Shown here in pieces: positions 2,693-37,985 of a stretch of 44,454 nt of DNA. Position 1 is the first letter of the stretch. Each line of letters opens with the position of its first letter. The DNA lies in the NCBI GenBank assembly GCA_004297985.1, contig SCRA01000053.1:1-44454 (forward strand), read 5' to 3'. A program made the position numbers and the translations under genes. Origin of the DNA: a bacterium (GTDB taxonomy: Bacteria; Vulcanimicrobiota; Vulcanimicrobiia; Vulcanimicrobiales; SCRA01). The notes beneath the pieces are model-generated. The model made no database searches. It worked only from the letters and a program-made list of their open reading frames with translations, and was not told the origin of the DNA.

Positions 2693-2985
2693 CTCAAGCC
2701 TCCCTACTCGACAGCTTGGGAACTGCGGGCTGCTCTGATCTCTTACCCGTGCGAGCTGCCGGTAAACAGAGACTCGACCGTGTGGTCCTATGTGCTCTCG
2801 GGCGTCCATCCCTCCGGCGGGCCGATCGTCGATGCCTCGGGTCCGAACTTCTCGACGTAGCGCGGATGAACATAGCCACACGGCTATATGCTTGCCAAGT
2901 CAATCGCAGAGGCGCCAGGTAGATCAACAATAATCGTTGACTAACGCCAGGGGATCGAGTACGCTGGCAGGGGAGGCGACGTACG
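2693..2985. other. Intergenic stretch with a possible short gene remnant
   Basis: This separates the divergent sedolisin and Xre-RES genes. On the plus strand 2771-2860 an open frame reads STVWSYVLSGVHPSGGPIVD and ends at TAG. It has the look of a coding remnant but no start and no family I can name. A weak promoter for the antitoxin is suggested by TTGACT at 2937-2942 and TACGCT at 2961-2966. Confidence 0.3.
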
Positions 2986-3366
2986 ATGCCATGGAGCCCA
3001 CTCGTCGAGCACATCAAGCAACCGAAGAAGCCGCAGGCACTCAGCGACGTGCGCCAACTTCTGGCGCGACTCGTCGACGCCTTCGGCGTTAATGAGCTTG
3101 GCAGGCTCCTCGATGTCAGCCCGGCCATGATCACCCGATGGAGGCGCGCCACGCCGATCAGTCCCGAGATGGCTCGCCGCATCATCGATCTGCACGACGT
3201 GCTCAATCGTGCGCTGCAGATCTTCCGCCCGCGTCAAGCGATGCTCTGGCTCGTTGGATCGGAGCCCTTACTCGACGGAGCCCGACCGATCGATGTGCTC
3301 GTCATGCACGGAGCGGCACCGGTCATCAATGCGCTTACCGCCTTCGAGCGGGGCGTCTACGTGTGA
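2986..3366 (+). CDS. Xre/MbcA/ParS-type antitoxin of the RES toxin
   Basis: A 126-residue protein with a helix-turn-helix in the first half (NELGRLLDVSPAMITRWRRA) and the C-terminal toxin-binding domain typical of RES partners (WLVGSEPLLDGARPIDVLVM and NALTAFERGVYV). The end of this domain usually plugs the active site of the toxin. A strong ribosome site GGGGAGG sits at 2970-2976. The stop overlaps the toxin GTG by four bases (GTGA). It likely represses its own operon. Confidence 0.9.
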   Translation: MPWSPLVEHIKQPKKPQALSDVRQLLARLVDAFGVNELGRLLDVSPAMITRWRRATPISPEMARRIIDLHDVLNRALQIFRPRQAMLWLVGSEPLLDGARPIDVLVMHGAAPVINALTAFERGVYV

Positions 3367-3905
3367 GGTTCTATCGCGTCTTCCCGTTTGACCCCAGCGC
3401 CGCCGTGGACCAACCCGGCGGCGCGATGTTCGTCCCCATGGGCGGCGACAATCGCCTCGGCAACGCCGATCTCTACCACGAGCTCTATCTCGCCAGCCAC
3501 GCCGAAGCAGCCGTCGCCGAGACGTTTGGCCGGCTCGCGGTTTGGGAGCCGGAGATGCTCGTCACCGCCAAGGGCTCCATCTACGCTCTGGCTACATACG
3601 ACCTTGCCGACGGTACGCCAGTCGCCGACCTCGACGATACGGCGCTCCTGGCTGAGATGGGGCTCCGCCCTACGGACGTCGTGAGTCGCGATCGCCGGCA
3701 CACGCAGCACTGGGCACGCGAATTGTTCACGCGGCACCGATGGAGCGGCGTGAGCTGGTGGTGTTACTACCACCCACAATGGACGATCTACGCGCTGTGG
3801 GACGTCGGCAGTTTGCGACTAGCCTCGCCTCCCGAGCCCTTGCACGGCTCGCACCTCGCGCTCCGGCGGGCCGCTGAGACGATCGTCCGAAGCCTACACG
3901 CTTAG
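3363..3905 (+). CDS. RES-domain toxin (NAD-degrading or ADP-ribosyltransferase-like)
   Basis: A 180-residue protein. The N-terminal RFYRVFPFDP and later NLYH-like segment (NADLYHELYLASHAEAAVAET) carry the conserved Arg, Tyr and Glu regions of the RES domain, and the C-terminal half contains WSGVSWWCYYHPQWTIYALWD and a terminal PEPLHGSHLALRRAAE. Family members deplete NAD+. The GTG start at 3363 overlaps the antitoxin stop and fits translational coupling; a longer in-frame reading to 3138 is rejected because it lies inside the antitoxin. A C-terminal fragment of a paralogue is at 22367-22488. Confidence 0.9.
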   Translation: MRFYRVFPFDPSAAVDQPGGAMFVPMGGDNRLGNADLYHELYLASHAEAAVAETFGRLAVWEPEMLVTAKGSIYALATYDLADGTPVADLDDTALLAEMGLRPTDVVSRDRRHTQHWARELFTRHRWSGVSWWCYYHPQWTIYALWDVGSLRLASPPEPLHGSHLALRRAAETIVRSLHA

Positions 3906-7364: not shown

Positions 7365-7415
7365 GGCTCCCAGCACCTCTCTGCGAATACGCTCACCCTC
7401 GACGATGCGGTTCAT
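7365..7415 (-). pseudogene. CMD-family gene truncated after 17 codons (last gene of the catabolic operon)
   Basis: ATG 7415 overlaps the stop of the flavoprotein gene by four bases. The first 17 codons read MNRIVEGERIRREVLGA, nearly the same as the start of the CMD fragment at 547. After that the reading becomes unrelated DNA, the acetyltransferase scrap. The operon therefore once ended with, or continued through, a carboxymuconolactone decarboxylase-like gene that has been cut off by the neighbouring island. Confidence 0.75.
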
Positions 7416-9115
7416 CTCGCCTCCTCGTTGTCGTTGCTGGCGTGCATCGCGGCGAGGTACCCGAACGTCATCGCAAGCCCCAACTGCGAACCCGCCCCCG
7501 GATATTCGCCGCCCATGGCCGAGTGCATGTCGTTGCCGCAGGCGTAGAGGCCCTCGATAGGAGTCCCGGCGTCATCGAGTACCTGACTGTGCTCGTTCGT
7601 GCGCAGGCCCAGGCTTGTACCAAGGGGCGTCGGCACCACCGCCACCGCGTAGTACGGCGGCGCCTCGATCGGGCCCAGGCAGGGGTTGGGGCGATGCTCG
7701 GGATCACCGTTCCCGCGATCGTAGGCGTTGCCGCCCTTGTTGAACTCGGGATCGAAGCCGCTGCGCGCGAAGGCGTTGTGCTCCCGTACCGTGGCCGCCA
7801 ATCCGTCGGCGTCGACGCCGATCTTGCGTGCCAGTTCCTCAATCGTGGCGCCCGCGTGCAGGTACCCGCCGGCCAGGAAGCGCTTCAGCATGAACAACGG
7901 CGTTCGGGGCCAGATCATGCCTAGGCCGTACCGCGAGAGAAAGCGGCGGTCGCAGACCAGCATCGCGGGGATGCTGGGAACGCTGCGGTGCGAGCGGTAC
8001 ATCGCGCGCGTGAACTCGTGATACGAGACGGCTTCGTCGACGAAGCGGCGGCCGGCCGAGTTCACAGCCACCAGCCCAGGCTTGGCTCGATCCAGCACGA
8101 TGTGCGGGTAGACTGCCGTCGAGCCGTCGGCGCGCGTGGTAATCGAACTCGGGAACCAGAGCGCGTTGTCCTCGCCCGGCTGACCCAACGAGGCTCCGAT
8201 CTCCTGCGCCAGGAGCAGCGTTTCCCCGGCGCACCGCTCAAAGGCGGCGGTATACTCCGCTACCGGTTTTGGCAAGTAGCGCTCGCGCAGCTGCGCGCTC
8301 GCGGGGAAGCCTCCCCCGGCTAAGACGACGCCGCGCCTCGCGCGGACGGCGATGCTCGAGCCCCCGTGCTCGACGATCACTCCGCCCACGCGACCGTCGG
8401 TCCGTGCGAGCTTCGACGTCTCGCAATCGAACCAGATGGGGACGTCGCGCGTCAGCAAATTCTTGAAGAGCCTTGCCGCCAGCGCATTCCCCAACACCAG
8501 CCGCGTCCCGCGCTTGTATCGCACGCGGTCGGCCATATAGCGGGCAAAGAGACGCACCGCCAAGGCAAACCCATCCCACGATCCGATTCGCAGCAGGCGC
8601 GCCGCTTCACCCCGCGTCACCATCATGCCGCCGAAGAGTACTAGCTCCGGCAGCGGCCAGCCGACAAGGTCGAAGTCTGCGCCCAGGGTGCGTCCGTCGA
8701 ACGGTAACGGCTCCAGCGGACGCCCGCCTTCGGCCGCGCCCGGCAGCTCTTGGCGATAATCGGGGTGGTGGCGATAGATCGTGAAGTCGACATCGGTTCG
8801 CTCGCGCAGGTAGCGCAGCATCCGCGGCCCCGCGTCCACGAACGCCTCGCGCAACGCGCGCTCCGCGCGCCCGCCAACGAGCGCATCCAGGTACTCGAGC
8901 GCCCTCTCTCTATCCCCAGTGATGCCGATTCCCTGCTGCTGCGGATTGTCCGGAATCCACACGCTGCCGGAGGAGCGCGCCGTGGTCCCTCCCACGTACG
9001 CGCTCCGCTCGACGACGAGCGTGCGCAAACCCTCGATGGCCGACACGAGCGCCGCGGTCATGCCGCCTGCGCCCGCGCCCAGCACCACGAGGTCGTACTC
9101 CTCGTCCCATCTCAC
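7412..9115 (-). CDS. FAD-dependent oxidoreductase (FAD_binding_2; fumarate reductase / ketosteroid dehydrogenase-like)
   Basis: A 567-residue flavoprotein. The N-terminal dinucleotide fold is clear (YDLVVLGAGAGGMTAALVSA, then VVERSAYVGGTTARSSGSVW). The substrate domain lies in the middle, and the C-terminal FAD segment reads GLYACGNDMHSAMGGEYPGAGSQLG, the arrangement of 3-ketosteroid dehydrogenases and related flavoproteins. GTG 9115 is chosen: it overlaps the stop of the aldehyde dehydrogenase and puts the glycine motif near the N-terminus. A longer frame to 9334 would overlap the previous gene by over 200 bases. It probably introduces or reduces a C=C bond in the operon's substrate; the substrate is unknown. 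Confidence 0.88.
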   Translation of the reverse strand: MRWDEEYDLVVLGAGAGGMTAALVSAIEGLRTLVVERSAYVGGTTARSSGSVWIPDNPQQQGIGITGDRERALEYLDALVGGRAERALREAFVDAGPRMLRYLRERTDVDFTIYRHHPDYRQELPGAAEGGRPLEPLPFDGRTLGADFDLVGWPLPELVLFGGMMVTRGEAARLLRIGSWDGFALAVRLFARYMADRVRYKRGTRLVLGNALAARLFKNLLTRDVPIWFDCETSKLARTDGRVGGVIVEHGGSSIAVRARRGVVLAGGGFPASAQLRERYLPKPVAEYTAAFERCAGETLLLAQEIGASLGQPGEDNALWFPSSITTRADGSTAVYPHIVLDRAKPGLVAVNSAGRRFVDEAVSYHEFTRAMYRSHRSVPSIPAMLVCDRRFLSRYGLGMIWPRTPLFMLKRFLAGGYLHAGATIEELARKIGVDADGLAATVREHNAFARSGFDPEFNKGGNAYDRGNGDPEHRPNPCLGPIEAPPYYAVAVVPTPLGTSLGLRTNEHSQVLDDAGTPIEGLYACGNDMHSAMGGEYPGAGSQLGLAMTFGYLAAMHASNDNEEAR

Positions 9116-10554
9116 AACGGATGCACGCTCACCATCTTCAGATTGCTCATCTCGCGGATCGCGTAGCGGGGGCCTTCGCGCCCCCAGCCGCTGGCCTTCA
9201 CCCCGCCCGACGGCTCGTGGTCGGTGCGGGAGCGCGAGGGGGCGTTGATGTTGACGGTGCCGTACTCGAGCTCGCGCGCCGCGCGCATCGCCAGGGTCAA
9301 GGACTCCGTGAAGATCCCTGCTTTGAGGCCCCACGGGGTGGCATTTGCCGCCCGGAGCGCCTCACCGATCTCTTCGTACGGGATCACGGAAACCACCGGG
9401 CCGAAGACTTCGTCGCAGACCACCTTCATCGCCGGGCTCACGCCGCTCAGCACCGTCGGCCACACCAGCACCCCGTCGCGGCGTCCGCCGCAGTGGAGCC
9501 TCGCCCCTGCCGCCACAGCGTCATCGATCCACGCACAGATGCGATCGGCGGCGGGGAGCGTATTCAGCGGCCCAACGTTGGTCTCGGGATCGCGCGGATC
9601 GCCGACGCGCAGCGCGCGGGCTCTCTCCACCAGCGCGGCGGTGAACCGCTCCTCGATGGACGCGTGGACGTAGATCCGCTGCGTGGAGACGCAACTCTGA
9701 CCCGAGAGGCCGAAGGCCGCGCCCACCAGCAGCTCCGCCGCCCGCTCCCAGTTCGCGTCGCTATGAACGATCGTCGGCGCGTTGCCGCCCAGTTCCAGCA
9801 TCGTCCGCTTCAACCCGGCGTTGCGCACGATCTGCTCCGCCACGCGCCCGCTTCCGGTGAAGTTGATCAGCGCGACGTCGGGATGCGTGGTGAGAGCGTT
9901 GCCGACCTCCACCCCGCCGTGAACGATGTTGAAGACACCCGGGGGCACCCCCGCCTCCAAGGCGATCTCACCCAGTAGAGCGGCCACGCTCGAGCCCTGC
10001 GGATGCGGCTTGAGCACCAGCGCATCCCCCGCGGCGAGCGCCGGCCCCAGCTTGTGCGCCGCGAGGTTGAGCGGTGCGTTAAAGGGCGCAATGCCAGCCA
10101 CCACACCCATCGGCTCGTAAACCGCGAAGCCCGTCTTCCCGAGTCCGGCGAGGACCTGCTCCATCGGCACCACCTCGCCGCCGATGCGCTTGGCCTCCTC
10201 CGCCGACACCTCCATGGTCGAGACGGTACGCGCGACCTCTGCGCGCCCATCGCGGACCGTCTTGCCGGTATCGCGGCACATCACGTCCACGAACTGCGCC
10301 TCGCGCTCGCCCATCAGCCGCGCCGTCGCCGCCAGAATTTTCGCCCGCTCGTACGCGGGCGTGCGGCGCCAGCTCTCGAAGGCGCGGCGCGCGCCGGCAA
10401 CGGCCCGATCCACCTGGTCGAGCGTGCTCTCCACGACGTCGACCGCGGGGCGTCCGTCGTACGGAGAGTGCAGCCGCTGGGAGCCGCCGCCGTCCACCCA
10501 CGCGCCGTCGATGAGCGAGAGAATCCGGGGTAACGTGTCGACTTCGACCGTCAT
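9112..10554 (-). CDS. NAD(P)-dependent aldehyde dehydrogenase
   Basis: A 480-residue ALDH superfamily enzyme. Catalytic residues are all visible: Asn159 in APFNAP, Glu254 in TMLELGGNAP, Cys288 in GLSGQSC. The coenzyme-binding LKPHPQGSS and NFTGSGRVAE segments are normal. It oxidises an aldehyde to an acid in the cytoplasm. ATG 10554 is preferred; a TTG at 10560 overlapping the upstream stop is possible. Its position after a ThDP enzyme and before a flavoprotein suggests that it acts on the aldehyde released by decarboxylation of a 2-oxo acid. It differs from the P5C dehydrogenase at 24200. Confidence 0.92.
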   Translation of the reverse strand: MTVEVDTLPRILSLIDGAWVDGGGSQRLHSPYDGRPAVDVVESTLDQVDRAVAGARRAFESWRRTPAYERAKILAATARLMGEREAQFVDVMCRDTGKTVRDGRAEVARTVSTMEVSAEEAKRIGGEVVPMEQVLAGLGKTGFAVYEPMGVVAGIAPFNAPLNLAAHKLGPALAAGDALVLKPHPQGSSVAALLGEIALEAGVPPGVFNIVHGGVEVGNALTTHPDVALINFTGSGRVAEQIVRNAGLKRTMLELGGNAPTIVHSDANWERAAELLVGAAFGLSGQSCVSTQRIYVHASIEERFTAALVERARALRVGDPRDPETNVGPLNTLPAADRICAWIDDAVAAGARLHCGGRRDGVLVWPTVLSGVSPAMKVVCDEVFGPVVSVIPYEEIGEALRAANATPWGLKAGIFTESLTLAMRAARELEYGTVNINAPSRSRTDHEPSGGVKASGWGREGPRYAIREMSNLKMVSVHPL

Positions 10555-10556
10555 GC

Positions 10557-10856
10557 TCAAATCTCGATCTGGATCATCGCGCGCTCGCTGGGCTCAACGA
10601 TCCGGTTGGTCAGCGACTGGCGGATGTCATCGTGATAGGGATGCACCATGTAGTGCTTCCATGCGTCCCAATCGTCGAAATCCGCAACGAGGGCCACCGT
10701 AAAGCGGCGGTCCTCCGGGCCGACATTACGTCCGGCGGTGAAGCCGCGGATCACTGGGATCGCCGCGGGCATGCCGTGCCACCGCGCGATCAATTGATCC
10801 ACCTTCTCGTCCGGCACCCCGTCTCTGACCCTTCCGAAGAAGATGTGGCGAACCAT
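10557..10856 (-). CDS. Dabb-type (stress-responsive alpha/beta barrel) small protein
   Basis: A 99-residue protein: MVRHIFFGRVRDGVPDEKVD, GFTAGRNVGPEDRRFTVALV and DDWDAWKHYMVHPYHDDIRQ are typical Dabb signatures (the R-H-x-x-x-F opening and the H-P-x-H motif). The fold is a dimeric ferredoxin-like barrel. Relatives in catabolic operons act as small isomerases, cyclases or lyases, but the name alone does not prove catalysis. It ends next to the ALDH start. Confidence 0.85.
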   Translation of the reverse strand: MVRHIFFGRVRDGVPDEKVDQLIARWHGMPAAIPVIRGFTAGRNVGPEDRRFTVALVADFDDWDAWKHYMVHPYHDDIRQSLTNRIVEPSERAMIQIEI

Positions 10857-10872
10857 CGCGATACCGCCTTCT

Positions 10873-11277
10873 TCAACCCTGGGCTCTGGTATCGACGCGC
10901 GACATCTCTTGGGGCGGCGCGGAGACGACGACGAAGACGAGATCCTCGAGTCCCGTATTCTCGATACTGTGCAGCACCCTAGGGGGAATGTAGATCGCGG
11001 TGTGCGGCTCCACCACAACCCGCCGCTCTCCCAGCGTCATCAGCCCCTTGCCGCTCAGGATGTAGTAGACCTGCTCGGTCGTCTCGTGCGTGTGCTGCTC
11101 CACGTGCCCCTTGGGGGCATAGACGGAGATGCGGAAGTCGAAGTGCTTCGTGGCCGCATTCTCCGGGTTAACCAGCAACTTCGAGAGCGCGCCGTGGTGG
11201 CCGGGGGCCTCGATCCACGAGAGCTCCTCGAGTCTCACCACACGCGCCTCTGCGTTCGTCTGCGTCGTGCTCGTCAT
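10873..11277 (-). CDS. Single-domain cupin protein
   Basis: A 134-residue cupin. Motif 1 is seen as GHVEQHTHETTEQVYYILSG (His, His, Glu ligands) and motif 2 as PHTAIYIPPRVLHSIEN (the last His ligand). This metal site could support a dioxygenase, isomerase or sensor role. ATG 11277 shares a base with the stop of the ThDP enzyme upstream, so the two are translationally coupled. Confidence 0.88.
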   Translation of the reverse strand: MTSTTQTNAEARVVRLEELSWIEAPGHHGALSKLLVNPENAATKHFDFRISVYAPKGHVEQHTHETTEQVYYILSGKGLMTLGERRVVVEPHTAIYIPPRVLHSIENTGLEDLVFVVVSAPPQEMSRVDTRAQG

Positions 11278-13067
11278 CAGTCTTCTCCCCAACCAAAGTT
11301 CGGCATGGGATGTGGAATGGGCGGCAGGTCCCAGCTCCCGCTGGCGAGCGGCCGAATCTCACGATCGATCCGGACGTCGAGCACGGTTGGGCGGTTCGCG
11401 GCGATCGCCGCTTCGAGCTGCGGCGCCAAGTCCGCGGGCCGCTCCACCACCTCACCGGCCGCGCCCATGGAACGCGCCATCATCGCGTAGTCGGCGCTGA
11501 ACAGTCGTCCGCCCGTATCAGTGAAGCTCGTGGCCAGCTCGCGGTTCTGGCCGAAGTAGCCGAGCTGCTGATCGCGGATGGCGCAGTAGCCGAAGTTGTT
11601 CCAGACCAGCCAAACGACGGGGATCTGGTACTCCACCGCAGTCAGCACGGCACTGGCGTTCATCACGAACCCGCCGTCGCCGCAGACGGCCACTACGGGG
11701 CGGTCGGGGGCGGCGAGCTTCGCGCCCAGCGCCCCGCCGACGCCGAAGCCCATCGATGCGAATCCCCACGTTTGCAGCAGCGTGCGGCTTTTCCAGGCGT
11801 CGTACTCGGCGACCAGCCAGTTGTGGTGGACGCCCACATCGCTCAGCACGATGCCGTCGGCTGGAACCGCACGCCGCAGATCGGCGACTACGCGCTCGGG
11901 GCGCATCGGTACGGCATCGGAACTGCGCGGCGGTTCCGTTGCCGCCTCCCATTTCCGCCGCCAACCCGCGATACGGTTGAGCCACGCTTCACGGCGGCTT
12001 CCGTCCTCCGGCCGGCGAGCCAGAAGCTGCTCCAGCACGATGCGAGCATCTCCAATGATGGCGACGGCGGGTTGAAAGTTCCGGCCGATCTCGTTGGCAT
12101 CAATGTCGATATGGATCAGCTTGGCCGGCGGGATGCTGTAGGTGAAGCCGGGGAGCCACGCGCTGGTGGCGCGGTCGTCGAAGCGAGTCCCCAGCGCCAA
12201 GATGACGTCGGCATTGCGGCAGGCGGCGTTGGCCATGTAGGAGCCGTTGCGCCCGGTGGGGCCGAGACTGAGCGCGTGGCGCGCATCGAAGACGCCCTTG
12301 CCGAACGGAGTCGTGGCCACGGGAATGGCCATCGCCTCCGCAAATGCCACCAGCGCCGCCTCGGCGTTGCTCAGCTCCACGCCGTGCCCCGCCACGATCA
12401 CGGGGCGCTCCGCCGCGGCCAACAGGCGCATCGCCTCGACAATCGCGGCGGGATCGCCCGCGGGGCGCGCCCAGCGCGCCTCAGGCCAGTGGTCCTCGTG
12501 CTCGGCGGCGCCTTCGTCGACGGGCTCCACGAAGACGTTCAGCGGTACGTCGATGTGGACTGGCCCCGGACGTCCGTTGGTCATGAGCGCGAACGCCTGG
12601 CGCAGTGCAAGCGGAAGCATCTCCGCCCGCGTGGGCTGGAAGCTCCGCTTCACGTACGGGCGCACGACGTTCACGAAGTCCCCTTGGAAGTAGCGCCCGC
12701 TCTCCTGAAAGGGGCCGCGATTCCACTGGCCCGTGGGGACGTTGCCGGTGATGTTAAGCATCGCCGAGGAATCGGCGAACGCGGACGCGATGGCGACGAC
12801 GATGTTCGCCGATCCTGGGCCGCACGACGTAAACGTGGCAGCCGGCCGTTGAGCGATACGAAAATAGGCGTCGGCCATGAACGCCGCGACGGCCTCATGG
12901 TGGACCGAGATGGTGGTGATCTCGCCGTGGCGGTCGACGAGGCCGTCCAGCAGTCCCAAGATGCCGTGGCCACAGAGCCCAAACACGTACGGCACCTTCT
13001 GCCGAACGAGGAAGTCCGCGATGTAGGCGGCCCCTTTCGACGTCGGCCGCAGACGAGTTTCAGGCAT
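11277..13067 (-). CDS. Thiamine-diphosphate-dependent enzyme (acetolactate synthase / 2-oxo acid decarboxylase-like)
   Basis: A 596-residue three-domain ThDP enzyme. The N-terminal Pyr domain has the activating Glu58 (SVHHEAVAAFMADAYFR), the middle domain carries RPVIVAGHGVELSNAEAALV, and the C-terminal PP domain has the Mg-ThDP motif starting at VCGDGGF with Asn in NASAVLTAVEY. The family includes acetolactate synthase, benzoylformate decarboxylase, sulfoacetaldehyde acetyltransferase and oxalyl-CoA decarboxylase. No small acetolactate regulatory subunit is nearby and the context is catabolic, so decarboxylation or C-C cleavage of a 2-oxo acid is more likely than branched-chain amino acid synthesis. 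It follows TcuB by 12 bases. Confidence 0.9.
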   Translation of the reverse strand: MPETRLRPTSKGAAYIADFLVRQKVPYVFGLCGHGILGLLDGLVDRHGEITTISVHHEAVAAFMADAYFRIAQRPAATFTSCGPGSANIVVAIASAFADSSAMLNITGNVPTGQWNRGPFQESGRYFQGDFVNVVRPYVKRSFQPTRAEMLPLALRQAFALMTNGRPGPVHIDVPLNVFVEPVDEGAAEHEDHWPEARWARPAGDPAAIVEAMRLLAAAERPVIVAGHGVELSNAEAALVAFAEAMAIPVATTPFGKGVFDARHALSLGPTGRNGSYMANAACRNADVILALGTRFDDRATSAWLPGFTYSIPPAKLIHIDIDANEIGRNFQPAVAIIGDARIVLEQLLARRPEDGSRREAWLNRIAGWRRKWEAATEPPRSSDAVPMRPERVVADLRRAVPADGIVLSDVGVHHNWLVAEYDAWKSRTLLQTWGFASMGFGVGGALGAKLAAPDRPVVAVCGDGGFVMNASAVLTAVEYQIPVVWLVWNNFGYCAIRDQQLGYFGQNRELATSFTDTGGRLFSADYAMMARSMGAAGEVVERPADLAPQLEAAIAANRPTVLDVRIDREIRPLASGSWDLPPIPHPMPNFGWGED

Positions 13068-13079
13068 GGGCGAATCCTT

Positions 13080-14177
13080 TCAGGAGGTGCGCTCGACCTC
13101 GAGGCGGTGCTTGACGAGAGCGAGATAGCGATAGACCACGTGAACGAACTTGCCGTAGGGGGCGGTCACGAAGAGCACGCCAACCAGACCCAGGTGGATG
13201 CCCAGGAGCCACCCCATGACCTGCGTCCCCCGGAAGAGCAGCAGCGCCAGCCCGCTGATGGCCACCAAGTTCAGGAGCACCAAGAAGACGTAGTCCATGA
13301 CCGTCATCTCGGCCGCCGCCAGATCTTTGTCGCTGTTCACCTTCAGCACGGTGAGCCCGGAGCAGCCCACCACCAACATCACGCCGCCCACGATGCCGAA
13401 CATCACGGGAATGCTGAGGACGCGGAACGGCGGCATGATCCCCAGAAAATCCTGATAGATCGCCGCAAGCGTCGTGGCGATGAAGTCGGAGAGGAAGCCC
13501 CAGAAGACGAGCTGGTGAAACGTGCTGCGCAGCGACGATGCGGCGCGCTCGGGATAGTGGCAGCCGGCGCCCCCGCCCTTGGTATAGTGCAGCGTGACGG
13601 CTTCCCAAATCGCCCGTCCATGGGCGCGGACGTCCAGGAGATCACGCAGCGATTCGCCCGAATCTTTCCAGAACGCCAGTCCGCCGGCGATGGAGATCAC
13701 CAGCCCGTAGAGCGCCGCCGCCAGTCCCCCAGCCACCATCGCGACGTAGGGGACAACGCGGTAGAACGCGCCCGGGCCTTGATGAGCCGTGATGAGCACG
13801 CTCACGCCGATGGTGACGGCAACCGCGGCGAGGATGGCGGCAATGGCCGCTAGCGCGACGGTCGCCGTGCTCCATCCGCTGCTGCGGAGCATACGCGCGA
13901 AGGCGGCCGGCCTGCTGTAACGCTCGTAGGATTCGACCCGTGACTCCGCCAGCAGCTTGGGAATATTCACGCCGAATTCATGCGGCGGGGCATATTGACA
14001 CGCGTCGAGGCAGGCGCGGCAATCGTGGCAGACGTTGGAAATATACGCGAGGTCGCCTTGGCTAAACGTGTCGCGCAACTCGGCGGCCGGAAAGACCGCG
14101 CAGATGCTTTCGCAATAGCGGCAGGAGTTACAGACGTCGAACTGCCGTTGCGCTTCGCCTAACTTAGACTCGGACAT
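13080..14177 (-). CDS. tcuB: TcuB-like iron-sulfur / membrane electron-transfer protein
   Basis: A 365-residue protein with two CxxCxxC...C clusters near the N-terminus (CNSCRYCESICAVFP and CHDCRACLDACQYAPPHEFG), then about six hydrophobic segments with conserved His residues, ending FVHVVYRYLALVKHRLE. This is the TcuB/CitB layout: 4Fe-4S clusters facing the cytoplasm and heme-like membrane helices. In Salmonella, TcuB re-oxidises the FADH2 of TcuA and sends electrons to the respiratory chain. ATG 14177 overlaps the TcuA-like reading frame by 14 bases, as expected for partners. Confidence 0.9.
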   Translation of the reverse strand: MSESKLGEAQRQFDVCNSCRYCESICAVFPAAELRDTFSQGDLAYISNVCHDCRACLDACQYAPPHEFGVNIPKLLAESRVESYERYSRPAAFARMLRSSGWSTATVALAAIAAILAAVAVTIGVSVLITAHQGPGAFYRVVPYVAMVAGGLAAALYGLVISIAGGLAFWKDSGESLRDLLDVRAHGRAIWEAVTLHYTKGGGAGCHYPERAASSLRSTFHQLVFWGFLSDFIATTLAAIYQDFLGIMPPFRVLSIPVMFGIVGGVMLVVGCSGLTVLKVNSDKDLAAAEMTVMDYVFLVLLNLVAISGLALLLFRGTQVMGWLLGIHLGLVGVLFVTAPYGKFVHVVYRYLALVKHRLEVERTS

Positions 14178-16290
14178 GCCCTGCGGCTCCCTTTCCCGCG
14201 ATGCGCCCGAAGACGCTTCCAATCGTCAAGCCGAAACCGGCCAAGTAGCCTCGTGAGAGTATGTTGCCGGACATGCACTCTCCGGCAGCGTAGACGTTGT
14301 TGAACGGCGTTCCGTCGTGCAAGAGCACGCGCGCCTGCTCGTCTACCGTTACCCCCAAGTACGTGAACGTGATGCCCGGCCGCAACGGATAGGCCTTGAA
14401 CGGCGGAGCGTCGATGGGAAGCGCCCAATGGCTCTTCCGCGGCACGACCTCGTCGCTTGTGGCGCAGTCGTCGAGCTCGCCCGGCTTGAACTCTCCACCC
14501 TTCACAATCGCGCGGTTGTAGCGCTCGACCGTCTCGAGGAAGACCGCCCTGTCCACGTCCATCTGCTCAGCCAGCGCCGGCAGCGAGTCGGCGTGCAGCG
14601 GCCGGAAGACCGATGGGATGTAGCGGCCGACGACCTTGGAGTCGACGATCGCGTACGCCGTCTGATCGGGCTGCTCGGCCACCAAGCGCCCCCAGATGGC
14701 GTAGCGCTTCGGCCAGAGCTCCTCCCCCTCGTCGTAGAAGCGGCGGCCGCGCTTGTTGACGACGATGCCGAACGGGATCGCATCGACACGGGTGATGATG
14801 CCGCCGTCGTACCGCGGCGATCGCGCATCGACCGCCACGGCGTGGGCGCCCTTGGGATCGCCCACGGGCTTCGCTCCGCACGCAAGCAGAGCGGCTAAGG
14901 TGATCCCGTCGTTGTGGGGCGTGCCGCGGATGATGAAGTTGTCGGCCGGATCGCCCCAATAGCGCTTCAGCCAGGAGCGGTTTGCCTCGAAACCACCGGT
15001 CGCCACCACCACGGCCCGGCAGGAGACCCGTGTCTCGACGCCCGCGATGTCCGCGACGACCGCCGTGACCGTGCCGTTCTCGATCTCCAGTGCACGCGCC
15101 GTTGCGTCGTACAGGACATCGACGCCCATATGCTGCGCGGTGTCGTAGTAGGCGTTGATCAGGGTCTTTCCGCCACCCAGGAAGAAGACGTTGGTTCGCG
15201 AGAGGTGCAGCGCGCCGCGCAGCGGCTTCTGCCAATGCACGCCGTGGCGTTCCATCCACGGGGGGAGATTGGCCGACTCGCGCAGCGTGAGCTCGGCCAA
15301 GACTCGGTTGGTCTCGCCGCCGGTCACGCGCAGAAGGTCCTCCATGAACTCTTCTTCCGTATAGCGTCCCGTCGTATAGGCGCTTGCGGAGTCATGCGTG
15401 TAGCGGATGTCCCGCGTATGGCGCGTGTTGCCGCCGCGCAGGTGATACGGCGCTTTCTCCAACAGCAGGACGCTCGCGCCTTGACCTCGCGCCGATAACG
15501 CCGCGCAGAGCGCGGCGTTTCCGCCTCCCAGCACCACCACGTCGGCGCTGAGGCTGCGCCGCTCCACCGGGCGCGGAAACCCGGCCTCCTCCAGGCCCAC
15601 ATACGCCTCGACCAGACGCGTGTCCGAGAGCAGGTCCGCCGCCGGCCCCGAGACGGTCATGCGGCCGTCTTCAACTACGCAGGCGCGCTGCGCGAATTGC
15701 AGCGCGGCGCGCGCGTTCTGCTCGACCACCAAGATCGTGAGGCCGTCGGCGTGGAATCGCGAGAGCGCCGCATACAGCTCGCCGACCACCTTCGGCGCCA
15801 ATCCGGTAGAGGGCTCGTCGAGCAGCAGCAGCCGCGGTTTGCCCATGAGGGCTCGCGCGATCGCCACCATCTGCTGCTCTCCCCCGGAGAGCAGGCGGCA
15901 GGGCGTCGCCCGCAATCGCTCGAGCTTGGGGAAGATCTCGAAGATGCGCTCGATCCGGGCGGCGCGCTCGGAGGCCGGGGAGTCGAACGCCCCCATCTCC
16001 AGATTCTCGTCGACGCGCATCTCCGCGAAGAGCTCCCGGCGCTCCGGTGCGTAGCCGATCCCAAGTCTCGCGCGATGGTAGGTCGAGAGCCCGGTGAGCG
16101 GCCGGCCGTTGAAGCGGACCTCGCCGCGCGTCGCCGCGATCTGCCCCATGATGACCCGCAGCAGCGTCGTCTTGCCGGCGCCGTTGGCGCCGATCACCGC
16201 CACCGCCTCCCCTTCGCCGACGCTCAAGTTGACGTCGTGGAGAATCGGAAGCTGCTTGTATCCCGCGCACACATTCTCCAAGCGCAGCAT
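14164..16290 (-). CDS. LivF-type ABC ATPase fused in frame to a TcuA-like FAD dehydrogenase
   Basis: One uninterrupted 708-residue frame. Residues 1-232 are a complete LivF ATPase: Walker A GANGAGKT at 34-41, signature LSGGEQQ at 134-140, Walker B LLLLDEP around 154-160. Residues 248-708 are a complete TcuA-like flavoprotein starting at ADVVVLGGGNAALCAALSAR and ending with NVYAAGECMSGNILSRGYLA. No stop separates them; the joint is near GLEEAGFPRPVERRSLS. A GTG (codon of Val in PVERR) with GGAGGAGG 17 bases upstream might give separate TcuA, but the spacing is poor. Import of the acid and its dehydrogenation would be tied together in one protein. ATG 16290 is chosen; ATG 16305, overlapping the upstream stop, is possible. 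Confidence 0.88.
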   Translation of the reverse strand: MLRLENVCAGYKQLPILHDVNLSVGEGEAVAVIGANGAGKTTLLRVIMGQIAATRGEVRFNGRPLTGLSTYHRARLGIGYAPERRELFAEMRVDENLEMGAFDSPASERAARIERIFEIFPKLERLRATPCRLLSGGEQQMVAIARALMGKPRLLLLDEPSTGLAPKVVGELYAALSRFHADGLTILVVEQNARAALQFAQRACVVEDGRMTVSGPAADLLSDTRLVEAYVGLEEAGFPRPVERRSLSADVVVLGGGNAALCAALSARGQGASVLLLEKAPYHLRGGNTRHTRDIRYTHDSASAYTTGRYTEEEFMEDLLRVTGGETNRVLAELTLRESANLPPWMERHGVHWQKPLRGALHLSRTNVFFLGGGKTLINAYYDTAQHMGVDVLYDATARALEIENGTVTAVVADIAGVETRVSCRAVVVATGGFEANRSWLKRYWGDPADNFIIRGTPHNDGITLAALLACGAKPVGDPKGAHAVAVDARSPRYDGGIITRVDAIPFGIVVNKRGRRFYDEGEELWPKRYAIWGRLVAEQPDQTAYAIVDSKVVGRYIPSVFRPLHADSLPALAEQMDVDRAVFLETVERYNRAIVKGGEFKPGELDDCATSDEVVPRKSHWALPIDAPPFKAYPLRPGITFTYLGVTVDEQARVLLHDGTPFNNVYAAGECMSGNILSRGYLAGFGLTIGSVFGRIAGKGAAGHVRV

Positions 16291-16291
16291 C

Positions 16292-18034
16292 TCAGATCCC
16301 GGCATCGACGGCCGCCTGCTCACCGACTCCCAAGTATGCCTCAACGACATCCGGGTCGCGAAACACCAGCGCCGGCGGGCCCTCCGCGATTGTCTTACCG
16401 AAATCCAACACCTGCACCCGCGAGGCAAGGGGCGCAATCGCCGGCAAGACGTGCTCGATCGCAACGATGGAGCATCCCTGTCTCACCACCTCCGCCAAGA
16501 CGGCATGCACGCGCCCGATCTCCTGCGGCGTCATGCCCGCCATCGCTTCGTCCAAGAGGAGAACCCGCGGATGCAGCGCCAGCGCACGAGCGATCTCCAA
16601 GAGGCGCTGCTGACCCGGCGAGAGGCGCTCGGGAAGGGAGGCCCACTGATCGAGCAGCCCGACTTGGGAGAGGATCCTTGCCGTTTCGGCTGCGGCGACA
16701 CGCCGCGAGCGGTTGAGGCTCGACGACGCCAGCAGCACCGTCTCCCAGACGGTGAGCGATGGAAAGACGCGACTGGTTTGAAACGTGCGCGCGATTCCGG
16801 AGCGCGCGACGATGTGGGGCTTGATGCCGGTCAGCTCGCGGTCGCCGAAGTAGACCTTCCCTTCGGTAGGGCGCGCGAAGCCGGACAGCAGGTCGAAGAG
16901 CGTGCTCTTTCCCGCGCCGTTTGGACCGATAATGGCGAGAATGCTTCCCTCCTCCGTGGTGAGGTTGACGTCGCCAACGGCCACAACGCCGCCGAACTGC
17001 TTGCGCAGGTGCTCGCCGCGCAACCGCGCATTGCGCCCTTTGCCGAAGGCAGCGCCGAGCGGAGGCCGAGTCCCGGGCGGGACGCCCGGAGCAGGCGGCG
17101 GCGACCACACGGGGCGCCGCTGCAGCCAGCCGAACCGGTTCACGATAGAGACAAGACCGCCTGGCGCAACGATGACCACCAGAATCGTGATCGCCCCGAG
17201 GATGATCTGCTCTTGCATGGGGAACCGGGCCCACAGCACCTGCCCTAGCAGCGAGATGAGGATCGCGCCGATGACCGGCCCCCAGGTCGATCCGATGCCG
17301 CCGACCAGCACCATCAAGATCGTCTGCAACTCGATCGTTCCGTTGAACGCGCTGGTGGGGTCGACGTAGGCGATGTTCCAGACGTAGAGCGCTCCGGCCA
17401 GACCCGCCAGGCAGCCGCTGATGCAGAACGCCGCGACCTTGACCGCATCCGCATGGACGCCGGCGCCTTTGGCGGCAGCCTCGTCGTCGCGAACGGCCAT
17501 CAGCTGCAAGCCGAGGCGCGAGCCCATGAGCAGGTGGGTCAGCAGCACCGCGCCGCATGCCAGCCCGAGGATGGTCAACGTCGTCTCGAGCGCGTTGCCG
17601 GTGGTCGGGACGGATTCGCCCATCGCGCCTCCGGTGGCGCCCATGCTCGTCGCGGCGATCTGACCGATGCGCGCGAGGCCGAACATGCCCAGCGCAAAGA
17701 AAATTCCTTGCAGCCGCAGCATGATCGCGCCGAGCGGGGCCGCGACGACGGCGGCGCCCAACCCGGCGAGCGCGGCCGCGGCATACCATGGGACGTGCAG
17801 GTTCACGATCAGGCCCGCGGCTAGGTATGCCCCGAGGCCGAAGAACGCGACCTGCCCGAATGAAACGTACCCGGTGAGCCCGCTGATGATGTTCCAGCCG
17901 CACGCCAAGACGATGAAGATCGCCGTCGACGTGAGCACTTGCACGGCATAGCCGCTGCCGTTGAAGGCGATGGCCACCGCGACGGCCAGCACCGCGGCGA
18001 ACGCCATCAACTCGACGCCCCGCATCCGCTTCAT
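16292..18034 (-). CDS. LivM permease fused to LivG ATPase (branched-chain amino acid / organic acid ABC transporter)
   Basis: A 580-residue protein starting at ATG 18034, which overlaps the LivH stop by four bases. Residues 1 to about 315 are a multi-spanning LivM permease (GWNIISGLTGYVSFGQVAFF, LQTILMVLVGGIGSTWGPVI). After a proline-rich linker (PPPAPGVPPGTRPP), residues from about 345 on are a LivG ATPase with GPNGAGKS, signature LSPGQQRLLEIARAL and the LivG-type VLLLDEAMAGM. LivM-LivG fusions are known in this transporter family. With the separate LivH, LivF and binding protein a full transporter is encoded. Readings upstream of 18034 lie inside livH. Confidence 0.92.
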   Translation of the reverse strand: MKRMRGVELMAFAAVLAVAVAIAFNGSGYAVQVLTSTAIFIVLACGWNIISGLTGYVSFGQVAFFGLGAYLAAGLIVNLHVPWYAAAALAGLGAAVVAAPLGAIMLRLQGIFFALGMFGLARIGQIAATSMGATGGAMGESVPTTGNALETTLTILGLACGAVLLTHLLMGSRLGLQLMAVRDDEAAAKGAGVHADAVKVAAFCISGCLAGLAGALYVWNIAYVDPTSAFNGTIELQTILMVLVGGIGSTWGPVIGAILISLLGQVLWARFPMQEQIILGAITILVVIVAPGGLVSIVNRFGWLQRRPVWSPPPAPGVPPGTRPPLGAAFGKGRNARLRGEHLRKQFGGVVAVGDVNLTTEEGSILAIIGPNGAGKSTLFDLLSGFARPTEGKVYFGDRELTGIKPHIVARSGIARTFQTSRVFPSLTVWETVLLASSSLNRSRRVAAAETARILSQVGLLDQWASLPERLSPGQQRLLEIARALALHPRVLLLDEAMAGMTPQEIGRVHAVLAEVVRQGCSIVAIEHVLPAIAPLASRVQVLDFGKTIAEGPPALVFRDPDVVEAYLGVGEQAAVDAGI

Positions 18035-18906
18035 ACGCGACCCGCCTTTCCCAGCAGGCCTTGGGGGCGGAAGATCAAGACTGCGATGAAGAGCAGGTAG
18101 ACCACTGCTGCGGCGGCGTTGGACCCTAGGAAGAAGCTGGCAAAGGCTTCGGCAAGCCCCAGGGTTGCCGCAGCGAGAACCGCGCCGACGTAGTTTCCCA
18201 ATCCGCCGAGCGCGATCACGGTGAACGCCTGTACGGTGAGGTAGGAGCCGCTGCTGGCTTGGAAGGGAATCAGCGGAATCGTCAGCGCGCCCGCGGCTCC
18301 GGCCATCGCGGAGCCCATCGCGAAGCTGACGATGCGGATCATGCGAATATTCAAACCGCAGCTGGCGGCGCCCAGTTCCGACTGCGACGTCGCGCGCAGT
18401 GCCTTCCCCGAGACAGTCTTCGTCAGCCAGAAGTGCACGGCGCCGGCCAAGAGGCATGCGACGATCGAGCAGACAAGCAGATTCTCAGGAATCGGCAGGT
18501 CCCCGATCGCGATCGAGCTCTGGAGAAATGGTAGGGACTGCACCTGACCGCCCCAGAGGAGCAGCGCAAGGTTGGAGACGATGTACGAGAGGCCGAAGGT
18601 CGCCAGCAGCGTTCGCAGCTCCGCGTTCCCGCCGCGGGCTGCCAGACGTTCGAGGATGCCGGATTGTACCGCAAGCCCCACGGCGAACAACAGCAGCGCC
18701 GCAACCGGGAACGCCACTATCGGTGACAGATGGTAGGCCGCGAAGAGCGAGAACGCCACCAGGCCGCCGGCGACGATGAAGTCGCCGTGGGCAAGGTTCA
18801 CCACCTTCATCACGCCGTAGATGAGATTGAGTCCCTCTGCCATGAGGAGGTAGACACCTCCCCATAGCAGACCAGTAACGATCAGAAGCGCGTAGTCGTG
18901 AAGCAT
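18031..18906 (-). CDS. livH: LivH-type permease
   Basis: A 291-residue integral membrane protein with about eight hydrophobic segments and the LivH signature near the N-terminus (GLNLIYGVMKVVNLAHGDFI) and in the middle (QSELGAASCGLNIRMIRIVSFAMGS). It pairs with the LivM half of the next protein to form the channel. It lies 21 bases after the binding-protein gene. The substrate cannot be told from the permease. Confidence 0.92.
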   Translation of the reverse strand: MLHDYALLIVTGLLWGGVYLLMAEGLNLIYGVMKVVNLAHGDFIVAGGLVAFSLFAAYHLSPIVAFPVAALLLFAVGLAVQSGILERLAARGGNAELRTLLATFGLSYIVSNLALLLWGGQVQSLPFLQSSIAIGDLPIPENLLVCSIVACLLAGAVHFWLTKTVSGKALRATSQSELGAASCGLNIRMIRIVSFAMGSAMAGAAGALTIPLIPFQASSGSYLTVQAFTVIALGGLGNYVGAVLAAATLGLAEAFASFFLGSNAAAAVVYLLFIAVLIFRPQGLLGKAGRV

Positions 18907-18927
18907 TGCGGTACGTCGTCGATCCGG

Positions 18928-20139
18928 TTACTTCCAGGCGGGGTGCGGCAACTGGGCCGCGGCGTCAGAGAACTCCTTCGGCCAGACCAGTATCTGCTTG
19001 CCGTCTTGCCATTGGAGGACGTACGACGAGTAGCCCACTTGGAGCCCGGTTGGGCTCAGTTTGAACGGTCCGCAGACCGTCTGCAACGAGAAGTTGTGGA
19101 GCTCGTCGCGGATCTTGCCCTGATCGAGACTCCCCACTTTCTTGACCGCGCTGGTGAGCGCTATGACGGCCGAGTATGCCACTGCGGCGTGGTAATCCGG
19201 CATCATGCCGAACTTCGCCTTGAACGCGCTCACGAATGCCGCATTACCGGGCGTCTTCAGCGTGGGGAACCACAGCGTGGTGCCGAGCACGCCTTGCGCG
19301 GCTGATCCCAGCGCCGTGTTGAACTGCGGCTCGACCGGTCCGATGCTGAACGCGAACATCTTGGCGTTGATGTTCTGAGCCTTGGCCGCGCGCACGATCC
19401 CCTCGGCGTCGATCAGGTACGTGGCTCCGACGATCACGTCGGGATGCGCGGCGGCCGCCTTCAACACGAGTGGTCCGAAGTCGGTGGTGCTGGGCGGGTA
19501 CGACTCCTTGAAGACGACCTTGATGCCCTTGGCGCGAGCTTCGTCTTCAATGCCGCGCGCCAGCTCTTCGGGGAACTGGGTCTCTTGAATCAAGAGCGCC
19601 ATCGTCTTGTAGCCCTTGGCCGCCGCCAAGTCGATGACGGGCACCATGTACTGCGGCGTCTGGGTGATAGCCTGAACCAGGTAGGGGAATTGCCCCTGAT
19701 ACGGCTCGACGTTCGCGCCGAGCGCGGGCATCACCATCTTCGCGCGCGTGACCAGCGGCGCCACGGCGGCTACGAGGTCGGCCTCGTAGGGGCCGAGCAG
19801 CAGGTCGACGTGATCGCTGGTGATGAGCTTCTGATAGAGCTGAACCGCGGTCGACGGATTCCCTTGATCGTCGTACGAGACGAGCTTGAGCTGCCGCCCC
19901 AGGACGCCGCCGTGGCTATTGATCTCCTCGACCGCCAGCTGATAGCCGCGCAGCTCGAAGAGCGCCGGGGCCGCAAAAGGCCCGGTCTCCGTGATCGAGA
20001 GCCCCACCGCGATGGGCGAGGTATCGGCCGCAGCCGCCTTCAGCGGTGCCGCACCCATGGAAATCGCGAGCGTTCCGATGAGTGCGAGCCACGCCGTCGT
20101 GACTCTTCGACGGAGTGTTCCAGTGTCTCGTGGTGCCAT
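18928..20139 (-). CDS. LivK-like periplasmic substrate-binding protein
   Basis: A 403-residue protein (Peripla_BP_6). A twin-arginine-like start (RRRVTTAWLALIGTLAISMG) is followed by an AAA site, then the mature start (IAVGLSITETGPFAAPALFE, LRGYQLAVEEINSHGGVLGR). GGAGGAGG lies ten bases before ATG 20139; a TTG at 20148 is possible but too near the ribosome site. In HAAT transporters this subunit sets specificity; aromatic acids, dicarboxylates, urea and amino acids are all known ligands. TcuA/TcuB context suggests a carboxylic acid. Confidence 0.92.
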   Translation of the reverse strand: MAPRDTGTLRRRVTTAWLALIGTLAISMGAAPLKAAAADTSPIAVGLSITETGPFAAPALFELRGYQLAVEEINSHGGVLGRQLKLVSYDDQGNPSTAVQLYQKLITSDHVDLLLGPYEADLVAAVAPLVTRAKMVMPALGANVEPYQGQFPYLVQAITQTPQYMVPVIDLAAAKGYKTMALLIQETQFPEELARGIEDEARAKGIKVVFKESYPPSTTDFGPLVLKAAAAHPDVIVGATYLIDAEGIVRAAKAQNINAKMFAFSIGPVEPQFNTALGSAAQGVLGTTLWFPTLKTPGNAAFVSAFKAKFGMMPDYHAAVAYSAVIALTSAVKKVGSLDQGKIRDELHNFSLQTVCGPFKLSPTGLQVGYSSYVLQWQDGKQILVWPKEFSDAAAQLPHPAWK

Positions 20140-20189
20140 CCCGTTCAAACCTCCTCCGCACAGGGCGTTGCATTGGGTCTATGGATGTT

Positions 20190-21131
20190 TCATGAGACGA
20201 CGCTCGAGGCGCGGCGCAGGTCGTCGACATATCGACGCATACCTTCCTCGAGCGAGATGCGTGGTTGGTAGCCGACCTCTCGCCGTGCACGCTCGATGCT
20301 GAGCGCCCCTTTGACGGGAGCCGGGAAGCCGGGAGCAAACTCGAGCAGCCCGTTCCCCACCTCGATGCGGGCCCCCGGTATGTTTGCGGCGATGAGCTCT
20401 GCCAGATCGCCGAGGCGGACTGCGCGCCCGCTGCTGATGTTGTACGCCTGGTGGTCGAGCCGCGGCGCTTCGATCAGACGCAGCAAGCCGTCGACGAAGT
20501 CGTCGACGTGCGTGTAGTCGATGCGATGGTCGGCGCCCGTTTCGGACAGGGCGACACCCGTCGTCAACGCGTCGAGGATGAGCTTGGTCTCGAAGCGCAG
20601 GCGCGGCATGCCGGCACCGTAGACCCAAGAGGTCCGCACGTTGACCATCTCGACGCCGAAGCGGCGCCGGTAGTAGCCCGTGTACCATTCGGCGGCCACC
20701 TTGGTAATGCCGTACGGCGTCGCCGGCACCAAGGGGTGCGCTTCGTCGGCCGGCTCGTAGCCAAACGAGCCGTAGCACTCCTCGGAGCTGATCATGAAGG
20801 CACGGGGCACGCCCCGCAGCCTCATCGCTTCGAGCACGTGCACGGTGCCTGCGACGTTGACGTGCACGGTCGCCGCTGGCTGTTCCATCGAGAGGACCCC
20901 GCCCACGATCGCGGCGGCATGGACGATGACGTCGGGACTGGCCGCGTCGACGGCGTCGAGGACCGCGTGGAAGTCGCAGATATCGCCGGTCACGGTCTCC
21001 ATGCCGGATACGTCCGCGCGCGCTTGCGCCTGATGCGTGTCGAAAAGCGTGACGCGATGGCCGGCCTCGCGCAAGCGACGCGCCAGGCGCGCTCCGAGGA
21101 AGCCCCGCCCGCCGGTGATGAGAACGTGCAC
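20190..21131 (-). CDS. Extended short-chain dehydrogenase/reductase (epimerase/dehydratase family)
   Basis: A 313-residue NAD-binding protein. The opening VHVLITGGRGFLGARLARRL carries GxxGxxG, and the active-site YGITK (Tyr-x-x-x-Lys) follows the Ser-containing FMISSEECYGSFGY. The closing region resembles UDP-sugar epimerases and DenD-type hydroxy-acid dehydrogenases. In a catabolic operon oxidation or epimerisation of a hydroxylated acid is plausible. GTG 21131 shares one base with the regulator's TAG; the open frame upstream lies inside that gene. Confidence 0.85.
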   Translation of the reverse strand: MHVLITGGRGFLGARLARRLREAGHRVTLFDTHQAQARADVSGMETVTGDICDFHAVLDAVDAASPDVIVHAAAIVGGVLSMEQPAATVHVNVAGTVHVLEAMRLRGVPRAFMISSEECYGSFGYEPADEAHPLVPATPYGITKVAAEWYTGYYRRRFGVEMVNVRTSWVYGAGMPRLRFETKLILDALTTGVALSETGADHRIDYTHVDDFVDGLLRLIEAPRLDHQAYNISSGRAVRLGDLAELIAANIPGARIEVGNGLLEFAPGFPAPVKGALSIERARREVGYQPRISLEEGMRRYVDDLRRASSVVS

Positions 21132-21868
21132 TAGCCCGTTCTCCGGTGATGCCAGGTGCCGTGTCCGCTCTCGATGACGCGGCAAAGGGCCTCGACGGCG
21201 TGGTCGAGGTGGGCGCGCATCGTCTGCTCGGCCCGCTCCGGATCTCTGGCCGCGATGGCCTCGAGGATGTCGGTGTGCTCCTTCAGCGAGCACTCCGCAC
21301 GCCCCGGCGCGAGGATCGAACGGTACTGAAAGCTGACGCTCTGGGACTTGAGCATGCCGATGAGCTTGGCGGCCATGGCATGGCGCGACATGCGAACGAT
21401 GGTCTGGTGCAGGCGCACATTGACGTTAGCGTATTGCAGCAGGCCGCCGGCTTCGTAGTAGCCTTTGAGCTCCTGCATGATCCCACGCAGCTCGGCGATC
21501 TCTTCGTCGGTGGCGTTCAGGGCCGCGTATCGCGCCGTCAGGCCTTCGAGGACGGCTCTGGCCTCGACGATCTCGATCGCCTCCTCGTGGGAGATCAGGC
21601 GCACATGCGCGCCCCGATTGCGCTCCCGCACGACCAAACCTTCCTGCTCCAGCCGCGCGAGCGCGGTGCGCACGTTGGCCCGATTGGTGCCCAAGAGCTC
21701 CGCGAGATCGTTCTCGATAAGCCGCTCGTTGGGCAAGAACTGGCCACCGGTGATCGCCTCGCGCAGGCGGGAGGCGTAGTCCTCGTCGGCCACGCGCCGG
21801 TCGTTTGCGCGGCCGGCTGGGCTTAGCAACCGTCCCCCCGCACTCTTAGAATGATCGGATTCCCTCAC
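21131..21868 (-). CDS. GntR-family transcriptional regulator (FCD domain)
   Basis: A 245-residue regulator. Winged HTH near residues 25-85 (ASRLREAITGGQFLPNERLI, ENDLAELLGTNRANVRTALA, LEQEGLVVRERNRGAHV), then an all-helical FCD ligand domain (EIVEARAVLEGLTARYAALN, HQTIVRMSRHAMAAKLIGML, LKEHTDILEAIAARDPERAE). FCD regulators sense organic acids. GTG 21868 is preferred because AGAGGAG sits eight bases upstream; a TTG at 21919 gives a longer reading. It heads the 14-kb operon and lies 55 bases from a 28-bp near-palindrome that is a likely autoregulatory operator. Confidence 0.92.
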   Translation of the reverse strand: MRESDHSKSAGGRLLSPAGRANDRRVADEDYASRLREAITGGQFLPNERLIENDLAELLGTNRANVRTALARLEQEGLVVRERNRGAHVRLISHEEAIEIVEARAVLEGLTARYAALNATDEEIAELRGIMQELKGYYEAGGLLQYANVNVRLHQTIVRMSRHAMAAKLIGMLKSQSVSFQYRSILAPGRAECSLKEHTDILEAIAARDPERAEQTMRAHLDHAVEALCRVIESGHGTWHHRRTG

Positions 21869-21922
21869 GCAAAAGCTCCTCTGGCTATAAGGCGCCGGAT
21901 TGCGGTTCGAGCGCTTCAAGAG

Positions 21923-37271: not shown

Positions 37272-37985
37272 CTATTGCAGCTCGCGAGCCATCTTCTTCA
37301 ACGCGCGGCTGAGCAGCCGCGAGACGTGCCGCTGCGAGCACCCGAGATGAACGCCAAGCTCCATTTGTGTACGCCCTGCGCCGAACGTCGCCAACACGAG
37401 CAGCCGCTCGCGCTCGTCGAGCCTGCCAAGCGCAACGTCGAGAGCCACGCGGTCGGGTGTGGAGAGACCGTACGCCGGAGCCTCGCGCACTTTGGTGAGC
37501 TCTTCGGAGTGTTGCGAGCGGCGCGCGCGCTCGGCCTCCTCGACGTCGACGGTCGCGATGCCGAGCGCCGCGGCAACCTCTAAGGTCGTCGGCTCGCGCA
37601 GCATGCGTTGGCGCAGGTCCTCGCGCGCAGCGGCCGCGCGCCGTTCGGTGGAACGCAAACGGCGCGGCACACGCACCAGCGGCGTGGCGTCGCGGATGTG
37701 GTGGAGGAGCTCGCCCAACACCATCGTCCATGCGTAGGCTTCGAACGGAACGCCTTCGCCTGGGCGAAAATACTCGGCCGCCTTGATCAGCCCCAATGCG
37801 GCAACTTGCTCCGCGTCCTCGCGCTCCAGGCCGTCGCGGCGCAAACGCAGAGCGGCCCGGCGGCACAGATACCAAAAGTGTTCCACCAGCGCGTTGCGGT
37901 CGCCGACGGCTCGGGTGCACAGCCAGCGTGTGAGCACCGCCTCACCGGTTCTCACGAAGTACTCCGCGGCGGGGTTCACGGTCAT
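37272..37985 (-). CDS. Sigma-70 family factor (group 3, SigF/SigB-like) within the pilus operon
   Basis: A 237-residue sigma factor. Region 2 is REDAEQVAALGLIKAAEYFR then FEAYAWTMVLGELLHHIRD and PLVRVPRRLR; region 3 holds REPTTLEVAAALGIATVDVE; region 4 is RLDERERLLVLATFGAGRTQ then LGVHLGCSQRHVSRLLSRAL. This is the sporulation/stress (group 3) architecture rather than ECF. ATG 37985 overlaps the PilC stop by four bases. No anti-sigma gene is next to it. It may direct transcription of this operon or of genes that act with the pilus. Confidence 0.88.
   Translation of the reverse strand: MTVNPAAEYFVRTGEAVLTRWLCTRAVGDRNALVEHFWYLCRRAALRLRRDGLEREDAEQVAALGLIKAAEYFRPGEGVPFEAYAWTMVLGELLHHIRDATPLVRVPRRLRSTERRAAAAREDLRQRMLREPTTLEVAAALGIATVDVEEAERARRSQHSEELTKVREAPAYGLSTPDRVALDVALGRLDERERLLVLATFGAGRTQMELGVHLGCSQRHVSRLLSRALKKMARELQ

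Follow-up and report, generated by a model that had tools for sequence, protein, structure and literature searches.

A LivF-type ABC transporter ATPase and a TcuA-type dehydrogenase joined in one reading frame in a draft bacterial genome

Nucleotides 16290-14164 on the minus strand of the 44,454-nucleotide stretch of DNA analysed here (the window) form a single frame of 708 codons, starting with ATG at 16290 and ending with the stop codon TAG at 14166-14164. The frame contains, in order, a complete LivF-type ABC ATPase (residues 1-233), a short joint (residues ~234-246) and a complete TcuA (residues 247-708). Judged from the sequence, the LivF-TcuA fusion in the DNA looks real and lineage-specific, and unites two ordinary proteins. 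It probably gives rise to one two-domain LivF-TcuA protein at the cytoplasmic side of the importer. What is new is the combination of domains; both families are already known. The preliminary description of this DNA had claimed an in-frame joint of two intact domains, and this was borne out by the single open frame, by the family assignments of both halves and by the presence of their motifs. The features of the region are listed in Table 1.

Table 1. Features of the fused frame and of the surrounding gene cluster, in coordinates of the window.
Feature	Position	Strand	Basis
Second flavoprotein, 3-ketosteroid-dehydrogenase/fumarate-reductase type	7412..9334	minus	conserved in G123
Aldehyde dehydrogenase (ALDH), cluster-conserved	9112..10560	minus	conserved in G123
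Dabb (stress-responsive A/B barrel) protein, cluster-conserved	10557..11018	minus	
Cupin protein, cluster-conserved	10873..11292	minus	Cupin_2; 67-69% identical in G120 and G123
ThDP (TPP)-dependent acetolactate-synthase-like enzyme	11277..13067	minus	profile match; 78-80% identical in G120 and G123
TcuB, membrane 4Fe-4S partner	13080..14177	minus	TIGR02484, 336 bits (cut-off 246.6); good SD, AAGGGAG
TcuA, FAD-dependent tricarballylate dehydrogenase moiety (residues 247-708)	14167..15552	minus	NCBIfam TcuA, invariant residues, AlphaFold, fold match
Joint (residues ~234-246), predicted unstructured	15553..15591	minus	low pLDDT in both models, no in-frame stop, codon usage
GTG codon 242, only plausible internal start for free TcuA	15565..15567	minus	
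LivF-type ABC ATPase moiety (residues 1-233)	15592..16290	minus	Pfam ABC_tran, NCBIfam LivF, relatives, AlphaFold
LivM-LivG fused permease-ATPase	16292..18034	minus	BPD_transp_2 and ABC_tran in a single frame
LivH permease	18031..18906	minus	BPD_transp_2
LivK-type substrate-binding protein	18928..20148	minus	Peripla_BP_6, 4.8e-71
GntR/FCD regulator	21131..21919	minus	relative (60%) flanks TcuA in G120

Pfam ABC_tran matched the 708-residue protein at 2.1e-33, and NCBIfam LivF PRK11614 (NF008626) covered residues 1-232 with 211.1 bits (1.5e-62) against a cut-off of 441. Because this score lies below the cut-off of the branched-chain amino acid LivF equivalog, the ATPase is regarded as LivF-type and not as a certified branched-chain amino acid LivF. 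The half has the Walker A (GANGAGKT), signature (LSGGEQQ) and Walker B (LLLLDEP) motifs and the full-length ATPase fold of the LivF (HAAT) type, LivK, LivH, LivM and LivG are encoded with it, and it is 65% identical to the stand-alone LivF genes of two genomes of the phylum (G120 and G123). Thus, compared with LivF of the LivKHMGF (HAAT) systems, it shares all ATPase motifs, the full length and an operon of the order LivK-LivH-LivMG-LivF, but it differs in lacking its own stop, in carrying a C-terminal enzyme and in scoring below the equivalog cut-off. The TcuA half exceeded both curated cut-offs of its family widely, with 661.9 bits (cut-off 369) over residues 248-706 for NCBIfam TcuA PRK08274 (NF006130) and 561.7 bits (cut-off 372.55) for TIGR02485, and the FAD motif GGGNAA was found in it. 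TcuB, which had been claimed to lie directly next, does so, its start overlapping the end of TcuA by 14 nt. Of the positions that do not vary among the relatives, the LivF half retained 45 of 46 (8 LivF relatives compared) and the TcuA half 116 of 117 (19 TcuA relatives; the sole change is F557Y), so neither half looks decayed as judged from these positions.

The two halves were aligned and folded apart, since a joint alignment of both misplaced the LivF rows. Two AlphaFold runs were made, one given the LivF relatives and one given the TcuA relatives. With the former, residues 1-233 were modelled confidently (pLDDT mostly >90), and with the latter residues ~247-708 (pLDDT mostly >85); residues ~234-246 had low pLDDT and were unstructured in both models. 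The fold of the TcuA model matched flavocytochrome c fumarate reductases and urocanate reductase.

The joint peptide, EAYVGLEEAGFPRPVERRSLSADVVVLGG, is predicted to be flexible and about 10-15 residues long. LivF proteins in relatives and paralogues end at about 230-242 residues, shortly past a YLG motif, and TcuA relatives start near the FAD motif. In the fused protein the corresponding YVG is at residues 230-232 and the FAD strand runs from about residue 249. Therefore, the 708 residues correspond to a whole LivF (about 240 residues) and a whole TcuA (about 465 residues) placed head-to-tail with nothing lost, and the linker consists of their own tails. Given that LivF-type proteins end where they do, yet the frame here continues across the joint with coding-type codon usage, the joint, at the level of sequence, is more than a chance read-through.

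The joint was seen in only one genome, a metagenome-type draft of 90 contigs, and every other TcuA found is a separate protein. Both facts would fit a sequencing or assembly error, in which a wrong base hides a true stop or the contig is chimeric and two ordinary genes are present, and one changed base at codon 230, 234, 235 or 243 would indeed give a stop. We regard such an error as quite improbable. The two other frames are free of stops between codons ~206-210 and ~299-321, so a single-indel error cannot explain the open frame and a frameshift artefact was ruled out. A hidden stop is possible at very few particular bases, and a chimeric contig would have to be broken twice (at LivF/TcuA and at TcuB/TPP) within one conserved cluster.

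Relatives were sought among 149 genomes of the phylum. Close relatives of both LivF (65% identity) and the TPP enzyme (78-80%) were found in two of them, G120 and G123, which belong to the same taxonomic order as the source genome. In both, LivF stops at a TGA 8-10 residues past YLG and the TPP gene begins 16 nt later, directly 3' of LivF. The order in G120 (contig 22) is GntR regulator / TcuA-TcuB-LivK-LivH-LivMG-LivF-TPP-cupin-Dabb, and that in G123, on a short contig, is LivMG-LivF-TPP-cupin-Dabb-ALDH-flavoprotein. The window has the order LivK-LivH-LivMG-LivF::TcuA-TcuB-TPP-cupin-Dabb-ALDH-flavoprotein, with the GntR gene upstream. The cluster of Liv importer, TPP, cupin and Dabb genes (plus, in some, ALDH and flavoprotein) was thus found in three genomes of one taxonomic order (7412-20148 of the window and loci L031/L065 and L041), with TcuAB at two different positions in it. 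The G120 cluster is related to that of the window and transcribed in the same direction, but its LivF and TcuA are separate genes, TcuAB lying upstream of LivK and LivF ending in TGA before the TPP gene, whereas in the window LivF is followed first by TcuAB and then by the TPP gene, the LivF stop is missing and TcuA is in frame. Given this different placement of TcuAB, the fusion falls exactly at the rearranged border. In a phylogenetic tree, the TcuA of the window grouped with that of G129 (68% identity; support 87/87) and not with that of G120, which, at this moderate tree support, suggests that the TcuAB pair was acquired or moved separately. The presence of TcuAB and this Liv system in one cluster in two orders supports a shared pathway. 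LivM and LivG are likewise fused in operon order, in the window and as a single frame also in G120; both partners of that fusion are transporter components, whereas in LivF-TcuA one partner belongs to the transporter and the other is a catabolic enzyme.

A continuous frame might still yield a second product if ribosomes also start at GTG codon 242, giving LivF-TcuA together with a free working TcuA and leaving the fused form without a special role. This codon precedes the FAD strand by 9 residues, which is roughly the position at which other TcuA proteins begin, and a strong GGAGGAGG is present upstream of it. However, the spacing of this sequence to the GTG is 16-17 nt, which is beyond the usual, and the site at normal spacing (4-10 nt) has an SD-like energy of -4.3, an ordinary value that is equalled or bettered by 29% of the codons in the ORF. 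The TcuB and TPP genes, unlike GTG242, carry proper ribosome sites. Since there is no stop at the joint, TcuA could not be translated by termination and reinitiation. With no well-placed ribosome site at GTG242, one long protein is the likelier product and free TcuA a possible second one; we consider the double output conceivable but rather unlikely.

If the LivF-TcuA joint were part of a conserved functional family, that is, a transporter-dehydrogenase complex with members elsewhere, one would expect it in independent genomes. About 1,660 genomes were searched, and no LivF-TcuA fusion was found in the 55 other TcuA-bearing genomes among them, in samples of five phyla. There was no fused frame in ten further TcuA-bearing genomes within the source phylum, in eight from the order and thirty from the phylum of a Telmatospirillum locus, in five from the phylum of an Acidobacteriia locus, or in the one TcuA-bearing genome each of the Bacillota and archaeal samples. 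Every genome match to the full-length query began at residue 201 or later, nearly all at 235-249. The match that began at 201 (in G430) had no ATPase upstream, and long open frames around TcuA in G125, G152, G156 and G430, which by their length were candidates for a fusion, were without an ATPase match directly upstream. Two further long frames, of 651 codons in G488 and 628 codons in G559, were rejected because their matches began at 245 and 248, respectively, and for G559 also on inspection of the locus. When 72,556 plasmids were searched with a query centred on the joint, none among the best 5,000 records covered 80% of it; in another plasmid search one record was reported as covering at least 80% of the query. 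The joint query matched Shinella plasmids best; in these, tcuA and an adjacent ABC gene are two distinct genes with 176 nt between them, and the product of the ABC gene belongs to a different type from the LivF half.

Thus, the same joint was not found in independent genomes among those searched, and the absence of fused frames and of joint-covering plasmid matches makes a conserved family highly improbable, although the importer and TcuAB are linked by the cluster in two genomes. The preliminary description had proposed a search of other genomes for the same joint and had named homologues that are always two separate genes as evidence against it. The genes were separate in every other genome searched; in our view this argues against a conserved fusion but not against the fusion itself, because comparison with relatives reveals its likely cause, the new position of TcuAB within the cluster. 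The searched genomes are a small part of known species and further cases may therefore exist. The statement that no such fusion had been described agreed with our literature searches, in which no LivF-TcuA fusion was found, and with the genome searches above.

For Salmonella, PMC10468695 describes TcuA as a tricarballylate dehydrogenase in close association with the membrane, and TcuB as a FADH2:quinone oxidoreductase; Lewis and Escalante-Semerena 2006 is cited there for tcuABC and TcuA. The TcuA half in the window belongs to the same family and is likewise followed by TcuB, but it is joined to an ABC ATPase, and in place of the Salmonella transporter TcuC the cluster has a Liv-type ABC importer.

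We infer a single polypeptide, its assembly into the importer and a tricarboxylate-like acid as substrate. The partner of the LivF half would be the LivG portion of the fused LivM-LivG protein, beneath the LivH/LivM permease, and TcuA would hang off the C-terminal, cytoplasmic end of LivF. The tethered TcuA would then oxidise the imported acid and pass electrons to TcuB in the membrane, so that oxidation would be located at the importer with one TcuA per importer. The ATPases of ABC importers have their C-termini on the cytoplasmic side, pointing away from the permease. MalK and MetN carry extra domains at this end, which by analogy makes a C-terminal enzyme sterically plausible. The extra domains of MalK and MetN are regulatory, whereas that of LivF-TcuA is predicted to be a redox enzyme. 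We know of no other covalent link between an ABC importer ATPase and a catabolic redox enzyme, and found none. A functional dehydrogenase tethered to the importer, with ATP-driven uptake physically coupled to the first oxidation and electrons passing to membrane TcuB beside the importer, seems unlikely. A catalytic gain through channelling may exist, or the fusion may be neutral. Should the protein be functional, it would provide a naturally occurring test case for substrate channelling by enzyme-importer tethering. The cluster itself links TcuAB with a Liv-type importer, a TPP enzyme and an aldehyde dehydrogenase, and is a lead on the possible use of tricarboxylate-like acids by these uncultured bacteria.

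In the source genome (3.2 Mb), relatives of the LivF half among the ABC ATPase genes number in the dozens (84 query matches in total). Many of them lie in LivG-LivF pairs, which suggests that Liv-type importers are greatly expanded in this genome. Elsewhere in the window we observed a subtilase-like peptidase with a weak Pfam match (1265-2881, minus strand), a RES-domain protein (3138-3902, plus strand), which by family we take to be the toxin part of an Xre-RES system, genes for an SBP_bac_5 solute-binding protein (26148-27770, plus strand) and an EPSP synthase-family protein (28700-29992, plus strand), and a set of type II/IV secretion or pilus genes (37982-41233, minus strand) with one T2SSF and two T2SSE-type ATPases.
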